DNA of 64,000 nt, taken from Acuticoccus sp. MNP-M23. Its GTDB lineage: Bacteria > Pseudomonadota > Alphaproteobacteria > Rhizobiales > Amorphaceae. Positions 29,613 to 46,631 of the stretch are shown in pieces (position 1 is the first letter of the stretch; every line of letters begins with the position of its first letter). The stretch spans positions 1,474,001 through 1,538,000 of the forward strand of contig NZ_CP133480.1 of assembly GCF_031195445.1 (NCBI RefSeq), given 5' to 3'. The notes below the pieces were generated by a model, which was not told the origin of the DNA, did not search any database, and worked only from the letters and a program-made list of their open reading frames with translations. The translations under genes and the position numbers were made by a program.

Positions 29613-30497
29613 ATGAAACGCATTCTCCTTACCGCGATGGCGGCTGCCCTTGCCGCCAGCAGTGCGCAGGCCGCCGGCGACTGGCAGAAGCTTCTCACCC
29701 CGTCCGATCTTGCCGCGCTGGACGGCGTGACCATCGTCGACATCCGTTCGCCTGACGATTACGCCGCCGGCCATGTCGCCGGTGCCGTCAACGCGCCCTA
29801 CGGCAAGTGGCGCGGCCCGGCGGACAACCCCGGCGCCGTCATCGGCGACGCTCAGCTCACCGAAGTGCTGCAAAATGCGGGCCTCGACCACCAGGACAAG
29901 GTGGTCGTCGTGTCGTCCGGCGCGAACCAGACCGACTTCGGCGCCGCAGCCCGTGTCTACTGGACCCTGAAATCCGCAGGCTTCCCCGAGATCGCCATTC
30001 TGAACGGCGGCATCGCGGGCTGGACTGCCGAAGGCGAGCCGCTCTCAACCGACGCAGTTGCGGTTGCCCCCCATGACGAGACGTTCACCCTGTCGGACAA
30101 ATGGATGGTCGAGGCCGGCGACGTCGCCTCCATCGTCGCCGGCGAGAGCAAAGGCACGTTGATCGACGCACGGCCAGACCCCTTCTTCAAGGGCGAGACC
30201 AAGCACAAGGTCGCTGCGAAAGCCGGTACGCTGAAGGGCGCCGAAAGCCTGCCCTTCGCAAACTGGTTCGATGGCGACGACGTGAAGATCACCAATGCGT
30301 CGCACGCCGCCGACCTTGCAACCGGCCTCGGCGCGGATGAGGGCGATGAGATCGTCTCCTTCTGCAACACGGGCCATTGGGCGGCGACCAACTGGTTCGC
30401 CCTGTCCGAGCTTGCCGGCAAGGACAACGTGAAGCTCTACCCGGAGAGCATGGTCGGCTGGGTCAAGAATGGCGGCGAGGCCGTCCCCGGCGAGTAA
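29613..30497 (+). CDS. Periplasmic tandem-rhodanese sulfurtransferase
   Basis: A 294-residue protein with a signal peptide (~1-21, AAALAASSAQAAG) and two rhodanese domains (~25-135 and ~150-290). The first starts LAALDGVTIVDIRSPDDYAAGHVAGAVN and lacks an active-site Cys. The second has the catalytic Cys at ~251 in SFCNTGHWAATNWF. This is the thiosulfate/3-mercaptopyruvate sulfurtransferase layout, exported to the periplasm. GGAG lies 8 bases before ATG 29613. A longer in-frame extension upstream overlaps the previous gene and is rejected. It is followed by a structured repeat. Confidence 0.92.
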   Translation: MKRILLTAMAAALAASSAQAAGDWQKLLTPSDLAALDGVTIVDIRSPDDYAAGHVAGAVNAPYGKWRGPADNPGAVIGDAQLTEVLQNAGLDHQDKVVVVSSGANQTDFGAAARVYWTLKSAGFPEIAILNGGIAGWTAEGEPLSTDAVAVAPHDETFTLSDKWMVEAGDVASIVAGESKGTLIDARPDPFFKGETKHKVAAKAGTLKGAESLPFANWFDGDDVKITNASHAADLATGLGADEGDEIVSFCNTGHWAATNWFALSELAGKDNVKLYPESMVGWVKNGGEAVPGE

Positions 30498-30521: not shown

Positions 30522-30732
30522 GAGGGATCGGGCCGGGTCAAGGGCGCCGCAGGCGGGCGGAGCCTTCACCCTTGACGCGGTCCGAGCCCGGCACACGCTT
30601 GCATCAGGGGATCAGAACAGCCGGTCGCAAAGCGTCCGTCTGATCTGACCCCTGCCACGTGGCGAACGGGAGGGAGCACGAGGGAGGAAATCCCTCGTCT
30701 TTCAGGTGAAGAGCCGGCGCGTAGCGCCGACC
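30522..30732. repeat. Dispersed structured intergenic repeat, copy 1
   Basis: This 211-base element shares its layout with the copy at 45485-45698. It includes a 57-base stretch (30648-30704) identical in both copies. Stems visible here: an outer arm with GTCAAGGG/CCCTTGAC flanked by GGGCCG/CGGTCC; CAGGGG(A)TCAGA/TCTGACCCCTG enclosing a small CGC-AAA-GCG hairpin; CGAGGGA-GGAAA-TCCCTCG; and GGCGC-GTA-GCGCC. It fills the gap between the convergent rhodanese and malate synthase genes, so it probably folds at both transcript ends. Function unknown. Confidence 0.85.
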
Positions 30733-30740
30733 ACCCCAAT

Positions 30741-32324
30741 TCAGAGCATCCGGTAAGCCGGCAGCGTCAGGAAGGGCGACAGGCTGTCCGCCGTGGAGAG
30801 ATCGGTGAACAGCGCAATCGCGTCATCGAACCGGCCTGCGTCGTACGTCTCGGCGCCCACGTCCTCGCGCACCGCAGCCATCTCCTCCTTCAGGCAGCGA
30901 TCGAACAGCGCACGGTCGACGGTGGTGCCGTCCTCGAGCGTTGCGCCATATTTCAGCCACTGCCACAGTTGCGAGCGGGAGATTTCCGCGGTCGCGGCGT
31001 CTTCCATCAGGTTGTAGAGCGGCACCGCACCCTTCCCGCGCAGCCACGCCTCGATGTACTGGACGCCGACGCGAATGCAGTCGCGCACGCCAGCTTCGGT
31101 CTTCTGGCCCTCGTGAACCTCAAGCATCGCGGCCTGGCTCATCGTCACGTCGTCACGCTGGCGGCCCACCTGATTGGCGCCGGGCATCACGCGGTCGAAC
31201 ACCTCCATGGCGATGGGCACCAGATCCGGGTGGGCAACCCACGTGCCGTCATGGCCGTCCATGGCCTCGCGCTCCTTGTCGGCGCGGACCTTCTCCAGCG
31301 CCTGCGAATTGGCATCGGCATCGCGCCGGTTGGGAATCTGCGCCGCCATCCCGCCCATCGCGAACGCGCCGCGGCGGTGGCACTGCTTGATCAGAAGCTG
31401 CGAATAGGCCCGCAGGAACGCCTTGCCCATGATCACCTGGGAGCGGTCCGGCAGCACATAGTCGGGCTTGGCCTGCAGCGTCTTGATGAACGAGAAGATG
31501 TAATCCCACCGCCCGCAGTTGAGGCCGACGATGTGGTCCTTCAGCGCATGAAGGATCTCGTCCATCTCGAAGGCTGCCGGTAGCGTCTCGATCAGGACCG
31601 TGGCCTTGATGGTCCCGTTGGGGAGGCCGACATAGTCCTGCGCTGCGACGAAAACGTCGTTCCAGAGCGCAGCTTCGTGGTGGCTCTCCATCTTTGGGAG
31701 ATAGAAATAGGGGCCGGTGCCCTTGTCGATCTGCTTCTTCGCATTGTGGAAGAAATAAAGGCCGAAATCGAACAGCGCGCCGGAGATTGCCTCACCGTCA
31801 ACCGTGAAGTGTTCTTCCGGCAGATGCCAGCCGCGCGGGCGGACGAGGAGCACGGCCGGGTCGTCCGACAGCTTGTAGTCCTTGCCGCGATCGTCGGTGA
31901 AGTCGATCTCGTCGCGCCACAGGTCGAGCATGTTGACCTGCCCGTCCATCATGTTGGCCCATGTGGGGGACGAAGCATCCTCAAAGTCGGCCATGAACAC
32001 CTTGGCGCCGCAGTTGAGCGCGTTGATGATCATCTTGCGGTCGACGGGGCCGGTTATCTCGACGCGGCGATCCGTGAGATCAGCCGGGATCGGCGCGATC
32101 GTCCAGTCCCCTTCACGGATGTCGGCGGTTTCGGGCAGGAAGTCCGGCAGCGCGCCGGCGTCGATCGCGTTCTGGCGCTGGGTCCGCGCGGCGAGCAGAT
32201 CCACCCGGCGCTGCTGGAAGGCCCGGTGCAGCGTTGCCAGAAAGGCCAGCGCATCGGCGGTCAGAACCTCGTCATAACGCGGCGCCATCGCCCCTGTGAT
32301 CGTCACCCCGTCAAGATCTGCCAC
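30741..32324 (-). CDS. aceB: Malate synthase A
   Basis: A 527-residue enzyme condensing glyoxylate and acetyl-CoA into malate in the glyoxylate bypass (cytosol). Length and sequence fit the A isoform: TGPVDRKMIINALNCGAKVFMADFEDASSPTW, MESHHEAALWNDVF, IKATVLIETLPAAFEMDEIL, and GLNCGRWDYIFSFIKTL are its conserved core, with catalytic Arg and Asp/Glu metal ligands in these segments. Isocitrate lyase is not in the window. It is divergent from the exonuclease gene, and its 3' end faces repeat copy 1. Confidence 0.96.
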   Translation of the reverse strand: MADLDGVTITGAMAPRYDEVLTADALAFLATLHRAFQQRRVDLLAARTQRQNAIDAGALPDFLPETADIREGDWTIAPIPADLTDRRVEITGPVDRKMIINALNCGAKVFMADFEDASSPTWANMMDGQVNMLDLWRDEIDFTDDRGKDYKLSDDPAVLLVRPRGWHLPEEHFTVDGEAISGALFDFGLYFFHNAKKQIDKGTGPYFYLPKMESHHEAALWNDVFVAAQDYVGLPNGTIKATVLIETLPAAFEMDEILHALKDHIVGLNCGRWDYIFSFIKTLQAKPDYVLPDRSQVIMGKAFLRAYSQLLIKQCHRRGAFAMGGMAAQIPNRRDADANSQALEKVRADKEREAMDGHDGTWVAHPDLVPIAMEVFDRVMPGANQVGRQRDDVTMSQAAMLEVHEGQKTEAGVRDCIRVGVQYIEAWLRGKGAVPLYNLMEDAATAEISRSQLWQWLKYGATLEDGTTVDRALFDRCLKEEMAAVREDVGAETYDAGRFDDAIALFTDLSTADSLSPFLTLPAYRML

Positions 32325-44324: not shown

Positions 44325-45473
44325 GTGATCATCACAGACGTTTCCGTCCGCACCTTCAGGACCAAGACGAAGCGCCATTCCGACAGCGCAGGGCACGGCC
44401 ACCCCGGCCCTGCTCACAAGGTCGCGCAATCCCTGCTCACCGTCACCACCGAGGACGGTCACGAGGGCCATGCGTTTGCGGCGCCGCAAGTGGTCCGCCC
44501 GCACCTCATCGACAAGTACGTGAAGAAGGTGCTGATCGGGCAGGATGCGCGCGACCGGGAACGCCTGTGGCACGATCTGGCGCACTGGCAGCGCGGCTCC
44601 GCGGCCCAACTGACCGACCGCACCCTCGCCATCGTCGACTGCGCGCTGTGGGACCTTGCCGGCCGGGCGCTCAACCAGCCGGTCCACAAGCTCATCGGCG
44701 CCTACCGCGACAAGGTGCCCGCCTACGGCTCCACCATGTGCGGCGACGAGCTGGAAGGCGGCCTTGCCACCCCCGACGACTATGGCAGGTTTGCGCAGAA
44801 GCTGGTTGCCCGCGGCTACAAGGGCATCAAGCTCCACACCTGGATGCCGCCGGTCTCCTGGGCGCCGGACGTGAAGGCGGACCTCAGGGCATGCGCTGCC
44901 GTGCGCGAGGCGGTCGGCCCCGACATTGCGCTGATGATCGACGCCTTCCACTGGTACTCCCGGCTCGACGCACTGGCCCTTGGCCGCGGCCTCGAAAAAC
45001 TGGGCTTTGCCTGGATCGAGGAGCCGATGGACGAGCAGTCGATGTCGTCCTATGCGTGGCTTGCCGGCGCGCTCGACATCCCCGTGCTCGGCCCCGAAAC
45101 CGCGGCAGGCAAGTTCTGGGCACGGGCCGAGTGGGTGAAGGCCGGCGCGGTCGATATCCTGCGCACCGGCGTTCACGATGTGGGCGGCATCACCCCAGCG
45201 CTGAAAACCATGCGCATGGCCGAATGCTTCGGCATGGACTGCGAGGTCCACGGCAACGGCGCGGCCAACCTCATTGTCGCCGCCGCCTCGCGCAACTGCC
45301 GCTGGTACGAGCGCGGCCTCCTCCACCCCTTCCTCGAATATGACGACGGGCACGACTACCTGAAGACGCTGGCCGACCCCATGGACGAGGACGGTTTCGT
45401 CCACCTCTCCGACAGGCCGGGCCTCGGCGAAGAGATCGACTTCGACCACATCGAGAACAACCGCGTCGCCTGA
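44325..45473 (+). CDS. Enolase-superfamily sugar-acid dehydratase (mandelate racemase subgroup)
   Basis: A 382-residue protein. The capping domain is followed by a barrel with KGIKLHTW (catalytic KxK-type Lys), MIDAFHWYSRLDAL (first metal Asp), WIEEPMDE (metal Glu), VLGPETAAG (third acidic ligand), and EVHGNGAANLIV (His of the His-Asp pair). The mandelate-racemase subgroup contains glucarate, galactarate and related acid-sugar dehydratases. Adjacency to kdgD and a FadR-type regulator supports glucarate/galactarate dehydration, but the exact substrate cannot be read. Starts at GTG 44325, one base after the kdgD stop, so coupled. Confidence 0.85.
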   Translation: MIITDVSVRTFRTKTKRHSDSAGHGHPGPAHKVAQSLLTVTTEDGHEGHAFAAPQVVRPHLIDKYVKKVLIGQDARDRERLWHDLAHWQRGSAAQLTDRTLAIVDCALWDLAGRALNQPVHKLIGAYRDKVPAYGSTMCGDELEGGLATPDDYGRFAQKLVARGYKGIKLHTWMPPVSWAPDVKADLRACAAVREAVGPDIALMIDAFHWYSRLDALALGRGLEKLGFAWIEEPMDEQSMSSYAWLAGALDIPVLGPETAAGKFWARAEWVKAGAVDILRTGVHDVGGITPALKTMRMAECFGMDCEVHGNGAANLIVAAASRNCRWYERGLLHPFLEYDDGHDYLKTLADPMDEDGFVHLSDRPGLGEEIDFDHIENNRVA

Positions 45474-45484
45474 GCCAGCTTCCC

Positions 45485-45698
45485 GAGGGACCGGCACGGG
45501 TCAAGGGCGCCGAAGGCGGGCGAAGCCTTCACCCTTGACGCGTGCCGGGCCCGGCACACGCTCGCATCAGGGGTTCAGGACAGAAGGACGCGAAGCGGCC
45601 ATCTGCCCTGAACCCCTGCCACGTGGCGAACGGGAGGGAGCACGAGGGAGGAAATCCCTCGTCTTTCAAGTAATAATGTCGGCGCGGTCGCGCCGTCC
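45485..45698. repeat. Dispersed structured intergenic repeat, copy 2
   Basis: This 214-base element is the second copy of the repeat at 30522-30732. The core 45612-45668 is identical to 30648-30704 over 57 bases. Its stems: GGCACG-G-GTCAAGGG with CCCTTGAC-G-CGTGCC; CAGGGGTTCAGG with CCTGAACCCCTG (perfect 12 bp) around a CGC-GAA-GCG hairpin; CGAGGGA/TCCCTCG; and GGCGC/GCGCC at the end. It occupies the gap between the convergent dehydratase and DMT transporter genes. Confidence 0.85.
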
Positions 45699-45701
45699 GC
45701 C

Positions 45702-46631
45702 CTATGCCTCCGGCTCTTCCTGGGCCGGGCTGAAGGGGCGGGCCGAGGAACGGGCACCAATGTCCTGCCCGCGGATCTGCTCGCGCCACAGGGTGTAAAG
45801 GCCGGCCGCCACCACGATGGCAGCGCCGATCAGCGTCATGGTGTCCGGCACCTGCCCGAAGCCGAAATAGCCGATCAGCAGCGCCCAGATCAGCACCGTG
45901 TAGCGAAACGGCGAGACCGCACTCACATCGCCGAACCGCATGGAGCCGACATTCGTCACGTAGCCGACGATAATGAAGGCGGCCGAGCATGCGGCCAGCA
46001 ATGCTTCCCGCCCCACCGGCACCTTCCACCCCTCGAAGGGGATGACGAGGCCGGACACCACCGTGATGCAGACCGCGGAGATCGCGCTGGCGTACAGCGT
46101 CGGCGTCGCGGCGCTCATGCCGCGGGTGCCAAGGTCGCGCAACACGATGAAGAGCACCGCAAACACCGCGAAGATGGCATAAAGGTCGAAGTCGGCCCCT
46201 CCGGGCCGCAGCATCACCAGCATCCCGATAAAGCCGACCATGATGGCCGACCAGCGGCGCCACCCCACCTTTTCGCCGAGGAACAGCGCGGCGGCCATGG
46301 TGACGGCCAGCGGCGCGCCCTGGAGCACCGCCGTCGCATTGGCCAGCGGCATGTGGGACAGCGCCATCATGAATGACGCCGTCCCCAGGATCTCGCCTAT
46401 GGAGCGGAAGACGAGAGGGCGGATCTCGTGCCGGGCCGGGCGGAAGCGCAAGGCGCCGGTGGCCTGCGCCCATGCCACCAGGATCGCGGACGCGAACAGG
46501 CCGCGGATGAAGATCGTCTGCGCCACCGGCGACGTCTCGAAGTTCTCCTTCATGAAACCGTCGTTGATACAGAACGCGCCCATGGAGACGCACATCAGCA
46601 GCGCCCCCTTGGCATTGTCGGACATGGCCAT
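45702..46631 (-). CDS. DMT-superfamily (EamA) transporter
   Basis: A 309-residue inner-membrane protein with about ten hydrophobic helices in two EamA repeats: residues ~10-140 (ALLMCVSMGAFCINDGFMKEN, LANATAVLQGAPLAVTMAAALFLGEKVGWRRW) and ~155-295 (SMRFGDVSAVSPFRYTVLIWALLIGYFGFGQVPDTMTLIGAAIVVAAG). Drug/metabolite transporters of this type export or import small metabolites; the substrate is unknown. It follows the DUF4174 gene by 3 bases on the same strand; ATG 46631 with GGAA 8 bases upstream is preferred to ATG 46625. The 3' end faces repeat copy 2. Confidence 0.9.
   Translation of the reverse strand: MAMSDNAKGALLMCVSMGAFCINDGFMKENFETSPVAQTIFIRGLFASAILVAWAQATGALRFRPARHEIRPLVFRSIGEILGTASFMMALSHMPLANATAVLQGAPLAVTMAAALFLGEKVGWRRWSAIMVGFIGMLVMLRPGGADFDLYAIFAVFAVLFIVLRDLGTRGMSAATPTLYASAISAVCITVVSGLVIPFEGWKVPVGREALLAACSAAFIIVGYVTNVGSMRFGDVSAVSPFRYTVLIWALLIGYFGFGQVPDTMTLIGAAIVVAAGLYTLWREQIRGQDIGARSSARPFSPAQEEPEA

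Follow-up and report, generated by a model that had tools for sequence, protein, structure and literature searches.

What kind of sequence fills two separate gaps between converging genes in Acuticoccus sp. MNP-M23, changes the letters of its stems and still keeps them paired? The window analysed here is a stretch of 64,000 nucleotides (contig NZ_CP133480.1, positions 1,474,001 to 1,538,000). A first-pass annotation, made from its letters alone, had pointed out two copies of a dispersed repeat, and both are present where it placed them, with an identical 57-base core (30648-30704 and 45612-45668). As it also described, each copy lies between two gene 3′ ends, the first between the genes for a rhodanese-domain protein and malate synthase and the second between those for an enolase-superfamily protein and an EamA-like transporter; the element occupies two of the three convergent gaps of at least 100 bases in the window. 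It is about 200 bp long and consists of four to five hairpins, in the order H1, a linker with an ACGCT motif, H2, H3, H4 and, in part of the copies, H5, which in many of them runs into GTCC. The features are the following.

29613..30497, + strand: rhodanese-domain protein gene, left of copy 1
30522..30732, + strand: element copy 1, hairpins H1-H5
30524..30589, + strand: copy 1 H1, the long outer hairpin, arms GTCAAGGGC ... CCCTTGAC
30592..30605, + strand: copy 1 linker, which bears the recurring ACGCT motif
30606..30653, + strand: copy 1 H2, the central hairpin, with many paired changes among copies
30653..30670, + strand: copy 1 H3, a TGCC-NNNN-GGCGA-NNN-GG hairpin and possible pseudoknot, which holds the 16-mer TGCCACGTGGCGAACG
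30672..30703, + strand: copy 1 H4, hairpin GAGGGA/TCCCTC
30713..30729, + strand: copy 1 H5, a hairpin recognised in part of the copies only
30741..32288, - strand: malate synthase gene, right of copy 1
44325..45473, + strand: enolase-superfamily protein gene, left of copy 2
45485..45698, + strand: element copy 2, hairpins H1-H5
45487..45552, + strand: copy 2 H1
45569..45617, + strand: copy 2 H2
45617..45634, + strand: copy 2 H3
45636..45667, + strand: copy 2 H4
45678..45695, + strand: copy 2 H5
45702..46631, - strand: EamA-like transporter gene, right of copy 2

Both copies fold far better than expected from their composition (z-scores of -5.1 for copy 1 and -7.4 for copy 2), and none of 200 dinucleotide shuffles folds as well for either. 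The stem changes that had been quoted for the two copies are found in the sequence, and paired change is general across the family. In an alignment of 28 copies, both sides have changed in 17 of 24 pairs, with 80 double-changed cells against 21.9 in shuffles, and 94.1% of the cells are paired, compared with 35.6-53.7% in slid structures. A larger set of 94 model-aligned rows, which represents 93 of 100 fetched loci, includes one reverse-strand match and leans towards the structure in its alignment, gives double changes in 19 of 22 pairs and 316 such cells against 78.5 when shuffled. The excess over shuffles in both sets bears out the proposal that selection acts on the structure. Within H3, the three inner pairs show double changes in 13, 17 and 11 of the 28 copies, with no broken cell, and the loop reads GGCGA, or GCCGA in 2 of the 28. 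In two copies from two species, an additional C-G to G-C swap joins the base before the H3 stem to the loop; seen in two rows, this swap hints, weakly, at a pseudoknot.

The non-standard cells of the stems tell which strand folds. Among 1,970 cells (22 pairs, 94 rows) there are 104 G-T, 14 A-C and 70 other combinations, G-T exceeding A-C at 11 pairs and falling below it at three. Since equal selection on both strands of a cruciform would give similar numbers of G-T and A-C, the ratio of 104 to 14 indicates that it is the fold of the + strand that is kept. These observations show that the conserved state is a + strand fold, either as single-stranded DNA (ssDNA) or as RNA. Of the alternatives previously offered, RNA or a DNA cruciform, folding of one strand is therefore retained, whereas a symmetric double-stranded cruciform as the conserved state is disfavoured by the asymmetry of the wobbles.

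The element is not confined to the window. A BLAST search of the window's genome at E up to 1 returned 32 matches, 12 of them long (at least 148 nt), and of 41 genomes searched, all eight of the genus (seven other species besides the window's) contain matches; two of the 33 outside it have a single short match. A covariance model of the central part of the element, R1, built from the 28 copies, matched 31, 6, 44, 21, 24, 4, 39 and 20 times in the genus genomes G000 to G007 (G000 being the window's genome), counts that include reverse-strand shadow matches; outside the genus, five of 53 genomes had a single weak match. When 289 sampled genomes of the class, the window's included, were scanned under strict filters with at most 12 candidates scored per genome, three genomes other than the window's gave a single match each with E no higher than 1e-5. 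With matches in all genus genomes and in few elsewhere, the family has expanded at the level of the genus, within the limits of the sampling. The repeat is thus a dispersed REP-like family, with copies genome-wide and in all eight genus genomes, and the case of two lone copies with random substitution and no bias to convergent gaps is excluded.

Two further features of the window's genome were seen along the way. The matches at G000:C1 4577904-4578018 and 4581663-4581724 (loci L013 and L014) are one copy split inside H3 by an insert of about 3.6 kb, with an apparent 8-base repeat at both ends. A small contig bears two weak R1 matches of plasmid type (G000:C2 32557-32666 and 38995-39107), called upstream of genes and not at their 3′ ends.

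In agreement with the first-pass annotation, which recognised no named family, there was no Rfam match at gathering score in the window; the six matches around copy 1 are all below threshold, and identity with an Rfam family was rejected on this ground. In a topical search of the open-licence PMC literature at the level of titles and abstract beginnings, the module was not recognised as described, and two 13-base cores searched as text did not occur in that literature.

To place the copies relative to genes, 5-kb stretches were fetched around 100 R1 matches, leaving out the shadows and also some weaker real copies; the sample keeps three weak matches on plasmid contigs and both halves of the split copy. 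Genes were called with a codon-based caller checked by eye on the window, and 97 of the 100 loci could be classified, three lacking a left gene at contig ends. Sixty-four copies lie between convergent genes, 14 between two + genes, 14 between two - genes and five between divergent genes, and none was called inside a gene. By comparison, 6 of 78 other gaps of at least 100 bases in the same stretches, a small neighbourhood control, are convergent. The claim that the element is always found between convergent genes therefore holds as a strong bias (64/97 against 6/78), but not as a rule, 33 of the 97 copies lying elsewhere.

Location at gene ends invites a role in transcription. A bidirectional intrinsic terminator, one of the functions first suggested, found no support: there are no terminator-like sites in either window gap, and T-rich flanks are rare: at least 5 T in 9 bases occur in 3 of the 89 flanks that follow H4 and in none of the 79 that precede H1 (random, 0.8%). 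The combination of a GC hairpin and a T run is thus unsupported both in the window gaps and in the flanks. A broader possibility is that the element works as RNA, the + strand transcript folding as a 3′ UTR stabiliser, a processing site or a small RNA. The fold z-scores and the placement at gene 3′ ends are consistent with it, and RNA would explain the folding of one strand, including the wobble bias of 104 to 14, equally well. The tandem gaps speak against it, however, since copies there show no orientation preference (14 ++ and 14 --), which weakens the mRNA-end stabiliser proposed earlier even though the single-strand fold itself is conserved. The rarity of T-rich tails, the lack of promoter-like as well as terminator-like sites in either window gap and the lack of a gathering-score Rfam match also argue against an RNA element, as do opposite orientations in two gaps common to two species and the presence of the module in ssDNA phages and small plasmids of other hosts, both described below. 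We regard an RNA element as a possible but not a probable account.

An orientation set by replication was likewise considered and is unsupported. Beyond 3.5 kb, the regional GC skew is positive relative to the element in 26 of 64 copies, with no bias, so that no link to lagging-strand exposure is seen; the apparent signal is local to about 2 kb.

Known REPs offer a close comparison for the chromosomal copies. According to PMC3733652, REPs measure 20-40 bp, and CGTC REPs have stems of 8-9 bp, no transposase of their own and their highest frequency in Alphaproteobacteria; REPs lie mostly at gene 3′ ends, as PMC1525189 also states. The element resembles GTAG and CGTC REPs in being a dispersed palindromic repeat 3′ of genes, often between convergent ORFs, and the REP pattern of mostly convergent or tandem surroundings is found here (64 convergent, 28 tandem and 5 divergent of 97). 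It differs from them in its length of about 200 bp, its four or five hairpins and a module in common with ssDNA phages and plasmids. Since REPs are also found at 3′ ends and in convergent gaps, location alone calls for no new function. Mobilisation of the element as a REP by a RAYT was rejected, as no match to PF01797 (Y1 transposase) was found in the window's genome, while 5 of 14 control genomes do have one.

How copies behave between species bears on whether they are simply inert. The orthologue of the enolase-superfamily gene in G007 (86%) lacks the element at its end, and so do those of malate synthase in G007 (83%) and G001 (81%); synteny is also broken at both element-less gene ends, and an insertion footprint is therefore not readable there. 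Comparison of the flanking DNA between species gave short matches only, and comparison of the neighbouring proteins of the 100 copies gave seven cross-species gap pairs in which both neighbours are 81-96% identical. All seven are among G002, G004, G006 and G007, the window's species being in none, and the element has the same orientation in five and the opposite in two (L254 with L271; L269 with L275). Some gaps have been hit or kept in more than one species, either by inheritance with fast turnover or by repeated insertion; the two pairs in which the element is flipped speak for repeated insertion or inversion. Copies in these gaps have identities of 0.53-0.72 and differ by 2-6 double stem changes; the mean identity of 928 other cross-species pairs from G002, G004 and G006 is 0.640 (sd 0.057).

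These data are compatible with a neutral REP-like repeat, moved by some transposase, surviving only where it does no harm and having no present function: the two tested gene ends lack the element in relatives, copies in common gaps are barely closer than others, and known REPs are described as preferring positions 3′ of genes and convergent or tandem surroundings (PMC3733652). Neutrality leaves unexplained, however, the 316 double changes, the strand-specific folding and the sharing with phages and plasmids, and no Y1 transposase gene was found in the genome. We consider a neutral repeat quite improbable.

The sharing of the central module is what is new here: it is common to ssDNA phages, small plasmids and recombinase-trio elements. 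The 16-mer TGCCACGTGGCGAACG occurs in 25 viral contigs, and 11 of these encode hallmark proteins of ssDNA phages (phmmer with six reference proteins taken from these loci, supplied by 4 of the 11 contigs themselves). Five have a Rep like that of locus L150, which bears Phage_F, and six have Zot and/or secretin; L382 and L383 also match the PHROG major head protein, and L390 matches Rep families only. In all 11, a hairpin ends at the motif or one base before it, and in all 11 the module lies on the strand of the hallmark genes, which in such phages is the virion strand. By an ungapped nine-pair measure, the hairpin scores at least 12 in 7 of the 11 (6.6% of random positions do so). The remaining four score 10, their arms being one base further from the motif; by eye, these pair at 11 of 12 positions in L381-L383 and at 10 of 12 in L390. 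Among the 14 contigs without hallmarks, three have a hairpin scoring at least 12 and eleven have none, as expected if most of these are chance matches.

In small plasmids, blastn with the 3′ part of the element, and thus independently of any exact pattern, found an H2-type hairpin followed by TGCCACGTGGCGAACG, preceded in most by an H1-like hairpin. The carriers are a 2605-bp MobV/Rep plasmid, a 2953-bp Rep plasmid, pHIRE-D1 (MOBV) and the unannotated Zymomonas pZMN1-1. In addition, the whole H1-H5 block stands just 5′ of recombinase genes in two rhizobial plasmids: in L062 these are three genes annotated as recombinase or integrase, the first protein having an integrase domain in Pfam and the other two no match, and in L061 one integrase gene is followed by two hypothetical genes. 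Exact-pattern searches found a 19-mer in 84 stretches of the genome collection and an 18-mer in 8 viral contigs, and clustering of neighbours identified 27 of these 92 loci as trio loci. ORFs matching the three L062 proteins occur in 26, 20 and 15 loci, and 14 loci have all three, many contigs being short; the module precedes the first trio ORF by 8-168 bases in the 8 loci listed of 26. Exact 16- to 19-mers served to find the phage set and most of the plasmid-type loci, so the invariance of the letters there is by construction. A single hairpin model for 40 plasmid, phage and trio hairpins was dropped, its 5′ arms being misaligned.

Outside the trio loci, the neighbourhood of the module is varied. 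Pfam scans covered 162 of 214 ORFs beside non-trio loci, with 25 of 82 and 25 of 73 families listed; among the matches listed are Zot (7), MobA/MobL (2), Mob_Pre (2), REP_ORF2-G2P (2) and Phage_F (1). A type IV secretion DNA-transfer protein and an RPA replication protein each occur at least three times. Many neighbours belong to ordinary families, and the module is not tied throughout to genes of ssDNA biology. Nor are these loci convergent as a rule: 9 are +-, 11 -+, 10 -- and 7 ++, and the rest are one-sided, undetermined or within a called gene. Five chromosome-like loci are convergent (L079, L120, L110, L127 and L138); the right neighbours of L110, L127 and L138 cluster together, and UvrA was matched by two proteins of the scanned batch. 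Alphaproteobacterial MAGs show two distinct placements of the module (L110, L127 and L138; L090, L106 and L111), one of them between convergent genes and adjoining an apparent uvrA.

What the element has in common with trio, SE and GInt elements is the H1-H5 block, which in rhizobial elements immediately precedes a set of three recombinase-type genes. In PMC10214605, SE intermediates are hypothesised to be circles of one strand or its copy, and mainly nicked double-stranded circles are reported. The window differs in that no such recombinase genes flank either copy or occur elsewhere in it, and one trio protein had no relative in 21 genomes of kin, in a search run without a positive control; no mover is therefore identified. 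On the chromosome of Bradyrhizobium sp. BTAi1 the H1-H5 trio leader occurs at least five times, and it is found once on plasmid pBBta01 (L070, L075, L105, L133, L142 and L103). Genes for IS110/Piv-type recombinases stand near the module on plasmid-like contig C5 of the window's genome (L018), a Bradyrhizobium plasmid (L062) and a Neisseria contig (L093); IS110 members target REPs, according to PMC1525189. The H1-H5 layout shared with the trio leaders suggests descent of the chromosomal copies from an element with an ssDNA intermediate, or passenger movement by one.

A last structure of the same general form was noted in ColE1-type plasmids near rop, where a hairpin similar to H2-H3 is followed by CACGTAGCGA, the element having CACGTGGCGA; the likeness is by eye only. 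The hairpin with CACGTAGCGATAGCGG lies at L303 3288-3338, L304 4001-4049 and L305 189-224. We take this region to be that of bom and of primosome assembly, the hairpin with CACGTAGCGA presumably adjoining the bom nick region.

Do the carriers have in common a site that is cut? The module might be a nicking or recombination site, similar to an oriT, attC or recombinase site, on which a relaxase or the trio acts in trans and of which the chromosomal copies are footprints. The short distance to the first trio ORF, the relaxase genes near the module in some plasmids and the ColE1-type hairpin would fit such a site. The carriers, however, have differing relaxase or Rep families, the module is also found in phages with Zot or capsid genes, which to our knowledge do not conjugate, and the search for one trio protein, lacking a positive control, gave no relative in the 21 kin genomes. 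We consider a nicking site unlikely, and neither packaging nor nicking alone is common to all carriers.

The property that best fits phages, small plasmids and recombinase elements together is a stage as ssDNA, which suggests a priming site. The chromosomal repeat is REP-like by behaviour, and its core is a signal common to ssDNA replicons. From the observed folding and sharing, we infer a priming function, an enzyme that would recognise it and a route of spread: the best-supported reading, for which we judge the case to be evenly balanced, is that of a transposase-less repeat built on a single-strand initiation module, or complementary-strand origin. When the + strand becomes single-stranded, H2 and the adjacent H3 would fold as a pair of hairpins, the second with the loop GGCGA. 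This pair would be recognised by the priming machinery of the host, be it primase, a primosome loader or RNA polymerase, which would then start the complementary strand. Where the carrier is a phage, a plasmid or a recombinase-trio element, the module would thereby convert ssDNA intermediates to double-stranded DNA. The chromosomal copies would be non-autonomous descendants that spread, perhaps via ssDNA intermediates, and settled in gaps at gene 3′ ends, mostly convergent ones.

In line with this notion, sso1 of ICEBs1 and the sso of rolling-circle plasmids, as presented in PMC4595007, are likewise orientation-specific multi-hairpin DNAs that act single-stranded and are common to plasmids and an integrative element, a likeness by description. 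Here too, structure is conserved on one strand only, and the module is placed on the gene strand in all 11 hallmark phage contigs. Unlike sso as described in the papers found, the present module recurs as dispersed chromosomal repeats.

Whether the chromosomal copies might still be active is raised by a halo of GC skew around them. In G002, G004 and G006 (loci L198-L297 and L306-L358), 41 of 47 usable copies have a positive GC skew at third codon positions, read on the element strand, out to about 2.5 kb, and so do 35 of 40 after dropping one copy per gap common to two species; beyond 3.5 kb, the skew is positive in 21 of 50 in the same species. The raw skew around 39 convergent copies, sides averaged, is +0.034 to +0.048 at 250-2000 bases; past 2 kb it departs from zero by no more than 0.01. 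Adjacent genes shift with equal sign in both gene directions, two of the four classes comprising 8 and 5 genes. The shift is from C to G, with T unchanged, and is borne by oriented words such as GGTGGCGG (57 against 11 near the element; 75 against 97 far from it). In L269/L275, the one gap common to two of these three species in which the element is flipped and thus a single case, both neighbouring genes have a third-codon skew that goes with the element, with coding-strand values of -0.02 and -0.18 in one species and -0.34 and about 0 in the other. The window's species mostly has the reverse sign close to the element, with 3 of 12 copies positive; in G003 and G007, the counts of positive copies from the 5-kb data are 0 of 5 and 5 of 13.

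Local strand-specific processing, target preference or an effect of gene expression could produce such a halo. It is the main hint of active chromosomal copies, and it does not hold in the window's species. We consider it very improbable that these copies are working priming stations, re-priming the exposed + strand or reloading a primosome. Most such stations would lie in convergent gaps, where collisions of forks with polymerases occur, and their repeated use would leave a strand-specific GC halo of about 2 kb, such as that around the copies in the three species, that flips with the element.

Were the priming-site reading true, a TGCC-NNNN-GGCGA-NNN-GG signal with its hairpin would be used by ssDNA phages, small and mobilizable plasmids, integrative elements and chromosomes of many Proteobacteria. 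It would point toward a host priming system beyond the textbook cases of E. coli, and it would give at least one REP-like family an origin in the replication signal of ssDNA mobile elements.
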